This document shows, in pieces, positions 31,419-54,806 of a stretch of DNA of 64,000 nt (within the stretch, counting starts at the first letter, position 1; each line of letters starts with the position of its first letter). The stretch is from NCBI RefSeq assembly GCF_003851125.1, contig NZ_BGOW01000017.1:1-64000 (forward strand). The letters run 5' to 3'. Source of the DNA: Sulfuriferula multivorans. Its GTDB lineage: Bacteria > Pseudomonadota > Gammaproteobacteria > Burkholderiales > Sulfuriferulaceae. The translations under genes were made by a program, and so were the position numbers. The notes beneath the pieces were generated by a model. It saw only the letters and a program-made list of their open reading frames with translations, ran no database searches and had not been told where the DNA came from.

Positions 31419-31527
31419 ATTTCACCAGCAATGGCGTGCTCGATGGACTGTTTTGGCGGAATTCAATAACCCCGCTTTGCGTCGCACCTTGCGCACGATG
31501 ATCTCCTGATTATGGATGGCGCTTAAC

Positions 31528-31632
31528 TTTTGCCTTTTGCCTTTTGCCTTTTGCCTTTTGCCTTTTGCCTTTTGCCTTTTGCCTTTTGCCTTTTACCTTT
31601 TGCCTTTTGCCTTTTGCCTTTTGCCTTTTGCC
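31528..31632. repeat. Heptanucleotide tandem repeat (TTTTGCC)15
   Basis: Fifteen uninterrupted 7-bp units; unit 10 (31591-31597) reads TTTTACC. A partial unit follows. It lies between the second TlpA gene and the convergent TRAP solute-binding protein gene. The copy number is likely variable. The surrounding 31419-31667 holds no gene I can support. Confidence 0.97.
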
Positions 31633-31667
31633 TTCAGCGCCCTTAGGTCGGCAGCGGCGTAATTGCC

Positions 31668-35723: not shown

Positions 35724-35870
35724 TGGATTGCCTCAACGTAATATAGACCGCACTGACTTTAGACCGCCATACCGTCTAAATCAATCATTCTGTACCATCC
35801 TTTTAATTTTGTTACCAATTATGGCTGTCGCTCATTTTGGTCTGACCTAAAATTCTGACAGTCAGGCCGT

Positions 35871-36071
35871 GGTTGCCCGGCGGCAAGTTCTTTCTTTGCT
35901 CGTGCAAAGAAATGAACCAAAGAAAGCACGCCCCACCTTGCAGGCCTTCGGCTTCCCCCTGGCATCAGGCCAAAAACCGGCCGGGACGGGAACTCGCCTG
36001 CGGCTCAAACAGCCGCCCCGCCTGATCGGTTTTTGGCCTGATGCCAGGGGCTGCTGCAGAGGGGAAATGCG
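35871..36071 (-). repeat. Dispersed structured repeat, copy A
   Basis: About 200 bp shared with copies at 50551-50753 and 51641-51842 (both in the opposite orientation) and in part with 52500-52565. It has a perfect 24-bp inverted repeat (35956-35979 with 36027-36050) and a hairpin TTTCTTTGC/GCAAAGAAA near 35888-35910. The strand given is the one in which stem substitutions among copies stay paired. No protein is likely. The rest of 35724-36238 contains only a 7-bp inverted repeat (35758-35780) and the Xre-RES promoter. Confidence 0.9.
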
Positions 36072-36238: not shown

Positions 36239-36598
36239 ATGAACTTGGCACTCGTACCCAATACTGATCAATCCAGTGTGCTGTCGGAAGCCTTGGCCAA
36301 TGCCGGCAAGCACTTGGGGATGAGTCAGGCTGACCTGGGCGAGATCATTGGCAAGAACCGCACCGCCATCAGCCGGGGTGGTATCGACCCGGGCAGCAAG
36401 GCGGGTGAGTTGGCGCTGCTGTTCATCCGTTGTTACCGCGCGCTGTATGTGCTGGTTGGCGGCAACCCCGAGCAGATGCGGCACTGGATGCAGACCGAAA
36501 ACCTGCATACGGGCGGGGTTCCGGGCGAGCAGGTCAAAACCGTGCAAGGGCTTACCACCGTGCTGGAATATCTGGATGCCATGCGGGGCAAGTTGTAA
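36239..36598 (+). CDS. Xre/MbcA/ParS-type antitoxin
   Basis: A 119-residue antitoxin with an N-terminal helix-turn-helix (LGMSQADLGEIIGKNRTAISRGG) and a C-terminal DUF2384-like toxin-binding domain (LFIRCYRALYVLVGGNPEQMRHWMQTENLHTGGVPGEQV). It pairs with the RES toxin that starts immediately after its stop codon. It probably represses its own promoter through the palindrome at 36181. Confidence 0.88.
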   Translation: MNLALVPNTDQSSVLSEALANAGKHLGMSQADLGEIIGKNRTAISRGGIDPGSKAGELALLFIRCYRALYVLVGGNPEQMRHWMQTENLHTGGVPGEQVKTVQGLTTVLEYLDAMRGKL

Positions 36599-37348
36599 GT
36601 GATTGACTGGGATGCATGTCTGGCGGAAACCAGACCGCTGCGGCTTTCAGGCGAGTTACTGCGCCTGGTGGAAAGCCAGGAGCAGGTGGCGACCAATCAA
36701 CTGGTCAGTTCGCTCGACCGCCAGGCGGTGCTGGAAGACCTGCTGGAGTCAACCAAGCCGCGTTTGCGCCCGGGAACCGAACGCCTGGATTATCTGCTGG
36801 CAACACCGTTTCGCTATCCGCCGCTGAAGCATGGCTCGCGCTTTGGTACACGCAGCGCACCCAGCCTGTTTTATGGGGCGTTGAAAACCGGCACAGTGCT
36901 GGCAGAAGCCGCCTATTACCGGCTCCTGTTCTGGTACGGCATGGTCACGCCTCCTGCGGGCAAGCTGGATACCCAACACACTTTGTTTGGCGCGGAATAC
37001 CGGACCGACAAGGGGCTGCAACTCCAGGCAGCACCGTTTGCAGCGCATCGGGATGTGTTGAGCAGCCCGTCGGACTATGGCGCAAGCCAGGCGCTCGGTG
37101 CCAGCATGCGCGCGGCGGGGATTGAGGCATTCGAGTATGTTTCTGCACGCGACCCGGATGGCGGCATCAATGTCGCTCTGTATACACCGCAGGCCCTGAA
37201 GGGGAGTAAACCCGTGTTCCAGGAAGCCTGGTTATGCGAACTGACCGGCGAGCGCGTCAGCTTTCATGCCGCTCACAACCGCGCCCTGCATACATTTCCC
37301 ATCGATATGTTCCTGATAGCGGGCAAGTTGCCACAGGCGGCGAATTAA
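36599..37348 (+). CDS. RES-family toxin (NAD-degrading type)
   Basis: A 249-residue RES-domain protein. The active region shows HGSRFGTRSAPSLFYGALKTGTVLAEAAYYR with R81, Y92 and E103, and later ALGASMRAAGIEAFEYVSARDPDGGINVAL with the conserved Ser near the end of the motif set. Known RES toxins (MbcT, ParT, the Pseudomonas putida RES toxin) consume NAD or modify targets by ADP-ribosylation. The GTG start directly follows the antitoxin stop. It is longer than many RES toxins because of an N-terminal 70-residue helical part. Confidence 0.86.
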   Translation: MIDWDACLAETRPLRLSGELLRLVESQEQVATNQLVSSLDRQAVLEDLLESTKPRLRPGTERLDYLLATPFRYPPLKHGSRFGTRSAPSLFYGALKTGTVLAEAAYYRLLFWYGMVTPPAGKLDTQHTLFGAEYRTDKGLQLQAAPFAAHRDVLSSPSDYGASQALGASMRAAGIEAFEYVSARDPDGGINVALYTPQALKGSKPVFQEAWLCELTGERVSFHAAHNRALHTFPIDMFLIAGKLPQAAN

Positions 37349-50550: not shown

Positions 50551-50753
50551 CGCATTTCCCCCTCTGCAGCAGCCCCTGGTGTCGGGTCAAAAACCGATCA
50601 GGCGGGGCGGCTGTTTGAGCCGCAGGCGAGTTACCGTCCCGACCGGTTTTTGGCCTGATACCAGGGGGAAGCCGAAGGCCTGCAAGGTGGGGCGTGCTTT
50701 CTTTGGTTCATTTCTTTGCACGAGCAAAGAAAGAACTTGCCGCCGGGCAACCC
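50551..50753 (+). repeat. Dispersed structured repeat, copy B
   Basis: Same family as copy A, opposite orientation. Relative to A, its 24-bp stem has one double compensatory change (stem position 8, C-G to T-A) and three single changes that give G-T pairs when read on the plus strand. The terminal hairpin TTTCTTTGC/GCAAAGAAA is intact. The gap 50361-50938 otherwise holds only the 73-nt repeat and the DUF433 promoter region. Confidence 0.88.
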
Positions 50754-50938
50754 CGGCCAATCACGCGCTGAATTGGTATCACATTTGCGAAATACATCAT
50801 TACAATGATGTGACCATTATGACGGCGCTTATGACGGCGTGTGTGTAAAACAAACGACTTGATTGCGTCCCGCAGAGGTGTGTTTTAGACTCGCAAAATC
50901 AGTTCTGGTTGATGAAATTCAGAGTGGAGAAAATGCCA

Positions 50939-51154
50939 ATGGAAAGAATTACCGTCAACCCCGATCAATGCGGAGGTCGCCCCTGCATTCGTGGCATGCG
51001 CATACGCGTCAGCGACATACTTGAATTGCTTGCTGCAGGTGAAAGCCGCGAACAGATACTGGTGGATTATCCCTACCTCGAAGCGGATGACATTACCGCG
51101 GTGCTGCTGTACGCCGCGCGCCAATTCGACCACCCCGTCCTGATAGCTGCCTGA
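50939..51154 (+). CDS. DUF433-family antitoxin
   Basis: A 71-residue protein starting MERITVNPDQCGGRPCIRGMRI, the DUF433 signature, with a helix-turn-helix-like DILELLAAGESREQILVDYP. It is the antitoxin partner of the adjacent DUF5615 protein. The ATG at 50939 has GGAG 9 nt upstream; ATG codons at 50912 and 50933 are less well placed. The two genes are separated by one base. Confidence 0.85.
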   Translation: MERITVNPDQCGGRPCIRGMRIRVSDILELLAAGESREQILVDYPYLEADDITAVLLYAARQFDHPVLIAA

Positions 51155-51155
51155 C

Positions 51156-51491
51156 GTGCTGCGCTTCCTGGTCGATGCGCAGCTGCCGCCCGCCCTGGCC
51201 AGAAAGTTGACCGCGCTGGGGCATAAGGCAATACATGTACTCGATGTTGATCTGCTCGAAGCGAGTGACAGTAAAATATGGGATTACGCCCTTGCAGACG
51301 GCGCAGTGATCATCACCAAAGATGAAGACTTTGCCATCCGGGCATCCGTCAGCAAAAATGCACCTGCCATCGCCTGGGTCAGGATAGGCAATTGCCCCAA
51401 TGAAAAATTGCTTGCTTGGTTCGAGCGTGAGCTGCCTGCTGTCATCGCGGCATTTGAAGCTGGAAACCGATTAGTCGAGATTAGCGGCTGA
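51156..51491 (+). CDS. DUF5615-family PIN-like toxin
   Basis: A 111-residue protein starting MLRFLVDAQLPPALARKL with the first PIN-type Asp (D7), then VIITKDEDFA with the second acidic pair. DUF5615 proteins have a PIN-like nuclease fold and pair with DUF433. The GTG start follows the antitoxin stop by one base. The target RNA is unknown. Confidence 0.83.
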   Translation: MLRFLVDAQLPPALARKLTALGHKAIHVLDVDLLEASDSKIWDYALADGAVIITKDEDFAIRASVSKNAPAIAWVRIGNCPNEKLLAWFERELPAVIAAFEAGNRLVEISG

Positions 51492-51640: not shown

Positions 51641-51842
51641 GCGCACTTCCCCTCTGCAACAGCCCCTGGCGTCAGGCCAAAAACCGATCAGGCGGGATGG
51701 CTGTTTGAGCCGCAAGCGAGTTCCCGCCCCGGCCGGTTTTTGGTCTGATGCCAGGGGGAAGCCGAAGGCCTGCAAGGTGGGGCGTGTTTTCTTTGGTTCA
51801 TTTCTTTGCACGAGCAAAGAAAGAACTTGCCGCCGGGCAACC
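51641..51842 (+). repeat. Dispersed structured repeat, copy C
   Basis: Same orientation as copy B. Its 24-bp stem differs from the perfect stem of copy A at two positions, each giving a G-T pair on the plus strand. It flanks the toxin-antitoxin pair on the right as copy B does on the left. The rest of 51492-51962 shows no gene. Confidence 0.88.
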
Positions 51843-51962
51843 TCGGCTTGGTGTGACTGGCGAAATGCTACATGGCTAGACCCGACCCCGCGTTTTTACG
51901 AAGGTGCCTTCGCTGGCGCCCCTTCGGGGTGTCGCTCAACTCGAACACATTAGGGGCACTTA

Positions 51963-52397: not shown

Positions 52398-52499
52398 CCA
52401 ATCTCTACGCGCCGAGTGATGGGGGTCGGGTCTTGCCGTCATCACATTTCTGGGTGACTAAAACAGGTTCGTACATTCTGTAAGCCGCGTCAGGCCGGG

Positions 52500-52565
52500 G
52501 GTTGCCCGGCGGCAAGTCACTTTCTCTTGCTTGCCCAAGAGAAAGTAACCAAAGAGAATGGCACT
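52500..52565 (-). repeat. Dispersed structured repeat, copy D (partial)
   Basis: Only the terminal module of the family: GTTGCCCGGCGGCAAGT, then a hairpin TTTCTCTTG/CAAGAGAAA, then the ACCAAAGAGA part. Compared with copies A to C, the hairpin arms have changed on both sides together. The rest of 52398-52661 holds a 7-bp AT-rich inverted repeat (52639-52657) just past the phage operon stop, possibly a weak terminator. Confidence 0.75.
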
Positions 52566-52661
52566 AACGCCGCGCGATATATTTTTCGCTCAGAAGTGAG
52601 ATATTTGATGATTTAATATTTTGCATCAGTAACAAATAAATTGCATGTATTGCAATTGATC

Positions 52662-54806
52662 TTACCTTGAAAAGCTGACGTTGTGTTTCGTCCAGCTCAC
52701 ATATCCTGCTCTAACCGCCTCCAGTTCAATCCTCAAACTGGTATTAACAATACCGCCATTATCAGTCTGCTCGTCTGTGGTCAGATAGGTGTAGGTCGTG
52801 CCTGCCAATGCAGTGACTGTACGTTTCAGGGTACCGCCATCACCGTAGATACGCAGCGTGTAGGTCGTGCCAGCTTCAGGGCCAATGCTGACTTCGGACT
52901 GCTCGACCAGGTAGGCGGTTTGTTGCAGGCGGTCGCGGTGCGCCCAGTCTACGGTGAGCTGGCCTACGATGGTGGCGGGATAGGCCACGCCATTAATCAG
53001 CAGTTTACCTGGCGGATAGGGGCGGATGTAGCGCGCATTGAGAGTGATGCTGTCTGCTGGTGCGGCGGCTTCGGCCAGGGTGCCAAGGCTGGTAGTGGGC
53101 AGCAGCTTGATATTGACGATCTCGCCGCTGCTCCACTCTGTTTTGTCGATGGCATTGCGGGAATCGGCGAAATAGATGATCTCGCCGGCGCTGTGTGCGA
53201 TCGGGACGGTATCGAGCACGCCGCGCGCGAACGTGACGGTGCTGGTGCCGACGGCTTTGACCTTGAGCATCTCCCCGCCCAGTATCGCCCACTTGTCGAT
53301 TTGGACATCACCCAGCGCGGTTGGGTTGATGATGTTGATAATCGTATCGGTGACACCGATGCTGTTGGCCAGCACGGCGGTCGGGCAGAAACTGCCGTTG
53401 GCCTTTTTGCCGTAAGCGACTGCGCCGGTTCTATCCCACAGCTCATAGTTATAGGCATCACCGCTGGGCCGAGTACCGCTGGCGCCGACCAGTCCGGACA
53501 GCGGGTCGAGATCGGCGAACAGGCTGGGGAACTGGCCGATCACTTCGCGCACCAGGGTCCAGTACGGTACCTCGAACAGGATGCGTTGCGGGCAGGCTGC
53601 CGGGGCGCTGGAAGGTGAGGTCCAGCTGCTCGGCTGCGGTGCGGCGAACACCGCATGCGCGGCACTAAATATATCCTGCACGCACTCGATGCGGATTTGG
53701 CCGTCGGTGAGGTCGCCATAGTCGATCGAGGCGATACGCATCACTATATCGGTAACGCCATACGGCGCCCACTGCAAGCGGAATACGTCGCCCAGGTTAA
53801 GCCCCCATACGGTGCGGTTGCAGATCAGCGAAGCGCGGATCAGCGGCGTGGACAGTGTGGACAGCTCGCGCGCGGCGACAGCGGCTGCCAGCGTGCCGTC
53901 CGGAATGCCCTTGAAATCGCGCGTGACGCTGACTACCTGGCCGCCCTGCATCTGGATCACGGCGATGTCCTGCACGCTGACGCTGGCATCCTTGCCGGCA
54001 TCGCGGTCGTGGTATTTGAGCACTACCTCGCCGGTCAGCTCGCCGGGTAGCGCCTGGCTGAAACGGTCGACGCGGATCACGTTGTTGCCGGACAGGATCG
54101 GCAGGCTGGATACCAGGTAATCGTTACGCGCTAATTTCAGGGTGAACAGGCCGGTGGTGGTTTTGACGTACAGGCTGGCGTCGATGTGCTGGAGGATGTC
54201 GCCGATGAAATCCTCGATGCTTTGCTGGCCTTCCCACAGGATGGACAGCCCGAAGTTTTCAGCGAACAGGGTATCGGCCACGCTGGTAAAGCTGGCCAGA
54301 TCGAGGTCGGCGGCGTTATAGCCCATGCCGTACTGGCTATTGGTGAGTACGTCGTAGATGATGTGCGCCGGGTTGGCATTGCCGCTGATCTCGGCCTTGG
54401 CCGGGTACCACTGGCGCGGCACGCGCTTGGCGAAGATTGCCCAAGGTTTGATGTAGGGGTTCATCGCGGCCAGATACACCTGGCGCAGCACCAGGCTCAG
54501 CACGCCTCGGAATGCCGGTACCGGCGTGCCGGTGAGTTTGCTGGCCAGGTAATCGTTGACCGGTTGTCCCACCGCGCCGAATGCGATATCCACCGCGCCG
54601 GATACGCCACCCTCTTTTTTGGTGCCGCCGAACGCATCCTCCGCAGCGATGGTGATCTGCTGGTTGGCGGTGACGCTGCCGGTCCACACGGTTTTCTCGC
54701 CGACACGGATCTTGCTGACCTCGTCGACCGGGCCGTGGCAATACACCTGGTGCATGCCCAGGTAATATTTATAGCCGACGACTTGTGAGGAACTACTGCT
54801 GCCCAT
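52662..54806 (-). CDS. Phage tail tip/host-specificity protein (gpJ-like)
   Basis: A 714-residue protein starting GSSSSSQVVGYKYYLGMHQVYCHGP, as in the tail-tip family (Phage-tail_3 / gpJ-like) of siphoviruses. It carries a middle region IAVIQMQGGQVVSVTRDFKG and a beta-rich C-terminus ending in a fibronectin-like domain. It forms the baseplate or tip that contacts the host. It is the last gene of the leftward tail operon and overlaps the upstream small gene by 14 nt. Confidence 0.8.
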   Translation of the reverse strand: MGSSSSSQVVGYKYYLGMHQVYCHGPVDEVSKIRVGEKTVWTGSVTANQQITIAAEDAFGGTKKEGGVSGAVDIAFGAVGQPVNDYLASKLTGTPVPAFRGVLSLVLRQVYLAAMNPYIKPWAIFAKRVPRQWYPAKAEISGNANPAHIIYDVLTNSQYGMGYNAADLDLASFTSVADTLFAENFGLSILWEGQQSIEDFIGDILQHIDASLYVKTTTGLFTLKLARNDYLVSSLPILSGNNVIRVDRFSQALPGELTGEVVLKYHDRDAGKDASVSVQDIAVIQMQGGQVVSVTRDFKGIPDGTLAAAVAARELSTLSTPLIRASLICNRTVWGLNLGDVFRLQWAPYGVTDIVMRIASIDYGDLTDGQIRIECVQDIFSAAHAVFAAPQPSSWTSPSSAPAACPQRILFEVPYWTLVREVIGQFPSLFADLDPLSGLVGASGTRPSGDAYNYELWDRTGAVAYGKKANGSFCPTAVLANSIGVTDTIINIINPTALGDVQIDKWAILGGEMLKVKAVGTSTVTFARGVLDTVPIAHSAGEIIYFADSRNAIDKTEWSSGEIVNIKLLPTTSLGTLAEAAAPADSITLNARYIRPYPPGKLLINGVAYPATIVGQLTVDWAHRDRLQQTAYLVEQSEVSIGPEAGTTYTLRIYGDGGTLKRTVTALAGTTYTYLTTDEQTDNGGIVNTSLRIELEAVRAGYVSWTKHNVSFSR

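Follow-up and report, generated by a model that had tools for sequence, protein, structure and literature searches.

The arrangement in which a pyrimidine tract of loop 1 occupies the major groove of stem 2, running parallel to its purine strand in exact register, is that of H-type pseudoknots of the telomerase-RNA type and of MALAT1-type triple helices, and triple helices also occur at the 3' ends of some eukaryotic long RNAs. Among bacterial repeats, the PIT, TM-ECO and BoxC elements are dispersed sequences with three successive tracts predicted to form a triplex on one strand, and inverted configurations of them are described (Holder et al., 2015; PMC4666352). In the available text of that paper, the motif is G/C-rich with one hairpin and a third tract, and TM-ECO forms a triplex in vitro, while its formation in cells is not supported. 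A further class of intergenic repeats, the REPs, lies mostly between unidirectional and convergent genes (PMC3733652).

The repeat compared here with these systems has four copies, A to D, in the window, this being the whole stretch of 64,000 nt that was analysed. It is considered reasonably likely, from the sequence data, that it represents one family of dispersed non-coding and probably non-autonomous mobile repeats, the module of which would fold on one strand as a triple-helix H-type pseudoknot with a second pseudoknot beside it. Of the parts of this reading, the single-strand structure is real, directional and strongly constrained, while the triple-helix pseudoknot and the mobile nature of the repeat are each probable. 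Intrastrand-triplex repeats have already been published; the pseudoknotted A/T-rich variant appears to be new, as such a family was not found in print, although A/T-rich matches may sit unlabelled in the database of the group behind PMC4666352. The sequence strings of the repeat were found in no paper by literature search, and the accessible part of PMC2267715 names no matching family. The TM-ECO/BoxC sequence CCCTCNCCC...GGGNGAGGG...GGGNGAGGG was not encountered in the modules, the tracts of which are of the CTTTCTTTTG/CAAAGAAAAG types. At the Rfam gathering score, the window matched tRNA alone, and copy A and 12 loci gave at most matches below gathering score at a loose threshold. A resemblance to Xoo1 was judged to be chance because it reached 15.5 bits compared with a gathering score of 70, and because Xoo1 is placed beside thiC in the available description.

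The initial annotation had described a dispersed repeat with copies A, B and C and a partial copy D, all of which were recovered (BLAST and covariance model), with a unit larger than the one given there (see Table 1). The searches placed A at 35862–36060 (plus), B at 50563–50758 (minus), C at 51653–51850 (minus) and D at 52490–52570 (plus), slightly inside the whole units of A, B and C. The full unit of approximately 200–240 nt consists of a long hairpin with an 80-nt module at its outer end; no long stem was seen in copy D. The details of the earlier description also held, namely a stem of 24 bp that is perfect in A, three G·T pairs and a C-G to T-A double change in B, two G·T pairs in C, a G·T direction that corresponds to minus in A and to plus in B and C, and a changed terminal hairpin in D. 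What had been missed is that the downstream tract of D changes along with its hairpin (CAAAGAAAG vs CAAAGAGAA). In the rest of the host genome, BLAST identified four more full or part copies, two each on contigs C1 and C33, and the covariance model added matches on contigs C36, C44, C8 and C15. The further full copy on C1 carries another stem double change, A-T to G-C, giving compensatory change at two stem positions among four full copies. Folding of copy A compared with shuffled sequence gave z values of −7.1 and −5.9 on the two strands (0 of 200 shuffles each). The letters of the window copies agree with both proposed pseudoknots, with one G·T in the loop-tail helix of copy C (CGTGT/GCACG).

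Table 1. Coordinates of the repeat copies and of their proposed structural elements in the window.
Feature	Position	Proposed folding strand	Basis
Copy A, whole unit	35862..36064	minus (module orientation plus)	BLAST, covariance model, letters
Copy B, whole unit	50559..50762	plus (module orientation minus)	BLAST, covariance model
Copy C, whole unit	51649..51852	plus (module orientation minus)	BLAST, covariance model, letters
Copy D, pseudoknot module only, TTTCTCTT/AAAGAGAA subtype	52490..52570	minus (module orientation plus)	
Copy A, putative triple-helix pseudoknot core	35891..35930	minus	letters and covariation
Copy A, core duplex	35891-35897/35906-35912	minus	letters and covariation
Copy A, putative third strand	35919-35925	minus	letters and covariation
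Copy A, loop-tail helix	35901-35905/35926-35930	minus	letters and covariation
Copy A, base of stem	35887-35890/35914-35917	minus	letters and covariation
Copy A, proposed second pseudoknot	35866..35886 (35873-35877/35882-35886 and 35866-35869/35878-35881)	minus	letters and covariation
Copy A, long stem, perfect 24 bp	35956..36050 (arms 35956-35979, 36027-36050)	minus	
Copy B, both proposed pseudoknots	50693..50757	plus	letters
Copy B, first pseudoknot	CGTGC 50693-50697; putative third strand TTTCTTT 50698-50704; S2a 50711-50717; GCACG 50718-50722; S2b 50726-50732	plus	
Copy B, second pseudoknot	TTGCC 50737-50741; GCCG 50742-50745; GGCAA 50746-50750; CGGC 50754-50757	plus	

Covariation within the module was measured on 122 distinct modules, in an alignment fitted to the structure of the model, which favours pairing; in it 95.7% of the cells of the hairpin helices were paired. 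Changes on both sides were seen for 18 of the 19 hairpin pairs, with 190 double-changed cells compared with 27.4 in shuffles, and none of 500 shuffles reached the observed scores, these and the following shuffle statistics being inflated by related copies. The long stems were scored without favour to G·T, and 54 of the 203 units with enough context reached the stem score, the other 149 falling below it. On the folding strand, the mismatches of these stems amounted to 42 G·T cells and 18 A·C cells. Pooling of stems sharing a 10-mer left 31 groups, 20 with more G·T and two with more A·C, while pooling at the 8-mer level left eight groups with an asymmetry of 3 to 2. The initial annotation had proposed selection on a single-stranded structure with a defined direction, to be seen as covariation above background in an alignment of many copies, and the hairpin scores beyond all 500 shuffles, together with the predominance of G·T over A·C, bear this out. 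It should also be noted that the strand with the G·T excess is the one on which both pseudoknots make geometric sense. Selection for the folded strand would account for this excess, as would strand-biased cytosine deamination, and strand-biased mutation could add to the asymmetry.

The hairpin is followed by a further tract that is tied to it in an unusual manner. On the module strand, the order is arm P, loop and arm B of the hairpin and then tract Q, with Q being the complement of P in the same direction, and so the mirror image of B, rather than the reverse complement of P. Examples of P with Q are TTTCTCTT with AAAGAGAA, TTTTCTTT with AAAAGAAA, TTTTTCTT with AAAAAGAA, TTTCTTCT with AAAGAAGA and CTTCTTTT with GAAGAAAA. 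This parallel rule fits 270 of 284 pyrimidine cells in 38 distinct P/Q types, which are not independent events, compared with a mean of 233 and a maximum of 249 in 2000 shuffles. A pyrimidine, a purine and a third tract thereby lie on one strand with short loops and triplet-matched, as in an intrastrand triplex. The rule is broken in 14 of 289 interior cells, and shifting the register by one lowers the agreement from 0.973 to 0.55–0.58, the register shifts as a whole giving 0.50–0.58. At positions where P has an unusual letter, the matching change in Q is seen at the parallel position in 30 of 37 cells and at the antiparallel position in 13. Pairing between the tail and the 5' arm in antiparallel orientation, which would constitute a switch, was rejected as it fits 203 cells against the 270 of the parallel reading. 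No mutational process that yields mirror complements is known to us; they would be expected of a third strand.

When read on the opposite, folding strand, the triplets are T·AT, C·GC, G·TA and T·CG, in agreement with the published code. Of these, the C·GC triplet requires protonation. For the remaining two, the available text of PMC10609763 states that in the parallel motif G forms G·T:A and T forms T·C:G triads, each weak with one hydrogen bond, and credits them to Griffin and Dervan (1989) and to a PNAS paper of 1992. At these inversions, arm A was accompanied by tail C in three of three types and arm G by tail A in two of two. A search of 399 genomes with A or G at one arm position and the tail base left open returned seven matches, all of arm A with tail C, from five genomes of four families, two of the seven being in the earlier set already. 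No arm-G match was found in this search, and the open-base pattern at the second inversion position was found in none of the 399 genomes.

The end of Q also pairs with the loop of the hairpin, with at least four Watson-Crick pairs in 41 of 57 loop/tail types and in at most 20 in 1000 shuffles. When this loop-tail helix was assessed by fixed alignment columns, three of five measures exceeded all 500 shuffles and the other two were reached by 413 and 43 of 500 shuffles, many rows being one column out of register. Both this test and that of the third strand concern pairings absent from the covariance model. The opposite strand reads, in order, helix strand, pyrimidine tract, stem strand, helix partner, three bases and purine stem strand, which probably represents an H-type pseudoknot; its first loop would run alongside the purine strand of the second stem, in parallel orientation and within the major groove. 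Its two interleaved helices both covary, and loop 1 runs parallel to the purine strand in register, again with covariation; major-groove triples are suggested by the geometry taken with the triplet code. A second small pseudoknot directly adjoins the first, with the consensus TTGCC, GCCGG, GGCAA and CCGGC. In 90 of 155 types its inner helix reaches 5 bp or more, compared with at most 43 in 500 shuffles, and its outer helix was not found in 40 of the 155. By reasoning, the loop lengths of this second pseudoknot make sense on the opposite strand alone. Placement of both pseudoknots on the module's own strand was rejected by geometric reasoning, as the second would there have a crossing loop of one base or none.

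These helices bear on whether the repeat could be a DNA motif of the PIT/TM kind that forms an intrastrand triplex and is maintained or spread through an effect on DNA such as fork stalling or instability, with no RNA involved. The Y-R-R order on one strand is shared with the published purine-motif class (PMC4666352). However, the loop-tail helix and the second pseudoknot covary by themselves and are absent from that motif as set out in the available text, and the G·T excess favours one single strand over duplex DNA, which makes this explanation possible but rather unlikely. On the reading preferred here, A and D would fold on the minus strand and B and C on the plus strand, with the pyrimidine tract occupying the major groove of the pyrimidine-purine stem as its third strand, in parallel orientation, and pairing as T·AT and C·GC and, at inversions, as G·TA and T·CG. 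The triple helix would form when the strand is single, whether in a transcript or in lagging-strand or displaced DNA, and a trans-acting factor may recognise the folded strand and spread the repeat. A more far-reaching version, put forward only tentatively, is a widespread bacterial RNA or ssDNA family that in its natural variants reproduces the complete pyrimidine-motif triplet code and has two tandem pseudoknots, as the recognition end of a mobile element of a new class that would move via a single-stranded folded intermediate and an undescribed protein.

The arrangement of modules was counted over 156 non-overlapping loci with 222 modules, taking neighbours within 2.5 kb. Inward-facing inverted pairs numbered 46 with spans of 312–674 bp and nine that were wider, compared with three outward and seven direct pairs; at 312–674 bp, the 46 inward pairs stood against three outward and three direct. 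A common form is therefore a two-unit composite with modules at its outer ends. Such pairs have the terminal inverted repeats of a MITE, whereas the window copies form no inward inverted pairs among them and are taken as single or decayed versions of the composite. TM-like G/C-rich motifs were present, as separate stretches, inside 9 of the 46 pairs at approximately 14 times the density of the flanks, and at one Pseudomonas site the copies have differing, apparently rearranged interiors, both of which would suit a DNA motif of the PIT/TM kind. The wider pairs and the direct pairs enclose unrelated genes: the pair at locus L077 encloses an AAA_15/AAA_21 ATPase, DUF433/DUF5615 genes lie between copies B and C, and an addiction-module antidote lies beside a Gp49-like protein at L243. 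Genes of toxin-antitoxin type were observed beside copies, or with direct copies around them, at 50909–51491 and 36239–37348 of the window, at L226:3264–4275 and at L243:6354–7584, the neighbours being DUF433/DUF5615, RES/Xre, an addiction-module antidote with a Gp49-like protein, and DUF433 alone. Three of the four wider direct neighbours read had such genes.

With regard to gene context, ORFs were called on both flanks of 109 copies or pairs, of which 9 lay in divergent gaps, compared with 37 of 132 controls, and 37 lay in convergent gaps, compared with 23 of 132; this count leaves out 46 copies or pairs without called flanks and uses simple ORF calls. Among single copies between tandem genes, the folding strand coincided with the gene strand 23 times and was opposite to it 25 times, and this absence of strand bias speaks against a simple 3'-UTR role. 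Such a role, arising from host read-through, was rejected on the same count. A broader possibility is a structured RNA serving the host, for which the folded strand would be transcribed and the 3'-side triple-helix pseudoknot would block exonucleases or act as a small RNA. The scarcity in divergent gaps and surplus in convergent gaps, as well as the strand-specific G·T excess, agree with such an RNA, but the even strand distribution between tandem genes, the position of copy A between divergent ORFs and the lack of an Rfam family for the repeat at gathering score do not, and it is regarded as unlikely.

The initial annotation had also suggested a mobile element, which is supported indirectly by the dispersal, the inverted pairs and a site with and without the element, while no target duplication could be defined. 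At this Pseudomonas site, several genomes carry differing or rearranged copies, with a remnant in G679 and no element in G681, and neither an exact boundary nor a clean target duplication was seen. Comparison of four Pseudomonas copies placed the composite within a further inverted repeat. In some Pseudomonas copies (L334, L342 and L343), the module's hairpin arm contains a further palindromic insert.

A link to a REP-type Y1 transposase, also proposed earlier, was not upheld. Among 57 Y1 loci (7 own loci and 50 of a longer list, with a flank of approximately 1.5–2 kb where the contig allowed), no module was found above chance, two matches of 15 bits (E 0.11 and 0.14) being at chance level. 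Y1 genes were present in 40 of the 62 genomes searched, and no Y1 match was found in the six carriers G306, G254, G190, G220, G184 and G070. Hairpins arranged as inverted pairs in intergenic gaps, along with the frequency of Y1 genes, would be expected of a REPIN or REP-type element mobilised by a RAYT Y1 transposase; given the empty Y1 loci and the six carriers, this origin is very improbable.

Integron attC-like recombination sites around gene cassettes were weighed in the same manner, as, in the window and at L226 and L243, DUF433 or addiction-module genes lie between wider direct copies, and an integron integrase over cut-off was present in 41 of 69 carriers compared with 10 of 36 non-carriers (hand count). 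In genomes of 2.5 Mb or more, the hand counts were 39 of 63 and 9 of 18, and genome size therefore explains much of the enrichment. No module above 8.7 bits was found at five integron-integrase loci, and the stem reads GTT...AAC, the reverse of the attC core boxes, so that attC-like sites are hardly to be expected here. An integron integrase (487 bits) was observed in the host genome on contig C46:45756–46700, with no module there (L350). Contig C1 of G013 accounts for 34 rows among the matches listed, in which a 256-aa open frame with partial integron-integrase similarity has near-equal scores and is apparently an expanded mobile element.

The covariance model of the 80-nt outer module (R1) was built on 23 copies. 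It found the module in 111 of 300 genomes of the order and in 73 of 398 genomes of the phylum; 29 of these 73 come from a single family beyond the class and have weaker scores. When named genomes were scanned with a degenerate pattern, at least 120 stretches were returned, and Pseudomonas, Dyella, Thiobacillus, Sideroxydans, Methylobacter and Silvimonas titles were among the 80 matches listed, the carriers in named matches being mostly Beta- and Gammaproteobacteria. As at least three genomes of the same genus as the host gave no R1 match, the family may be old and inactive in that genus. BLAST of copy A found none of 50,697 phage records and one of 72,556 plasmid records over 25% of the query, one Pseudomonas copy found none in either set, and the exact degenerate pattern was present in one viral contig. 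Within the window, a Phage-tail_3 phage tail protein gene on the minus strand (52662–54806) ends next to copy D, which suggests a prophage edge. A TTTTGCC-type heptamer forms a tandem array at 31527–31648.

Base-triple covariation is rare evidence for a natural triple helix, and the triplet code appears to have been explored in the evolution of several lineages, down to the inversions that chemists described in vitro. The repeat is a good natural test of the bacterial use of triple helices. If the fold is real, it names the strand, provides biophysics with a ready set of natural compensatory mutants and opens a way to understanding the spread of a common unexplained intergenic repeat of Beta- and Gammaproteobacteria.

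Compared with the telomerase-RNA and MALAT1 types, the layout of loop 1 proposed here is the same; those are RNAs of single loci, whereas the present repeat is a dispersed element of many copies, with a putative RNA form. MITEs are likewise short, non-coding and dispersed with inverted ends, but the ends of the present repeat are folded modules, and no transposase or target duplication was identified. REP and REPIN-RAYT elements (PMC3733652; PMC6006769) are also intergenic palindromes that occur as inverted dimers and are rarer between divergent genes, as described in the available text, while the present repeat is much longer, with no GT[AG]G foot noticed and no Y1 association at the loci examined. 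In contrast to the PIT/TM-ECO repeats, it is A/T-rich and has a loop-tail helix, a second pseudoknot, often a long variable stem, and a third strand with covariation that includes G·TA and T·CG.
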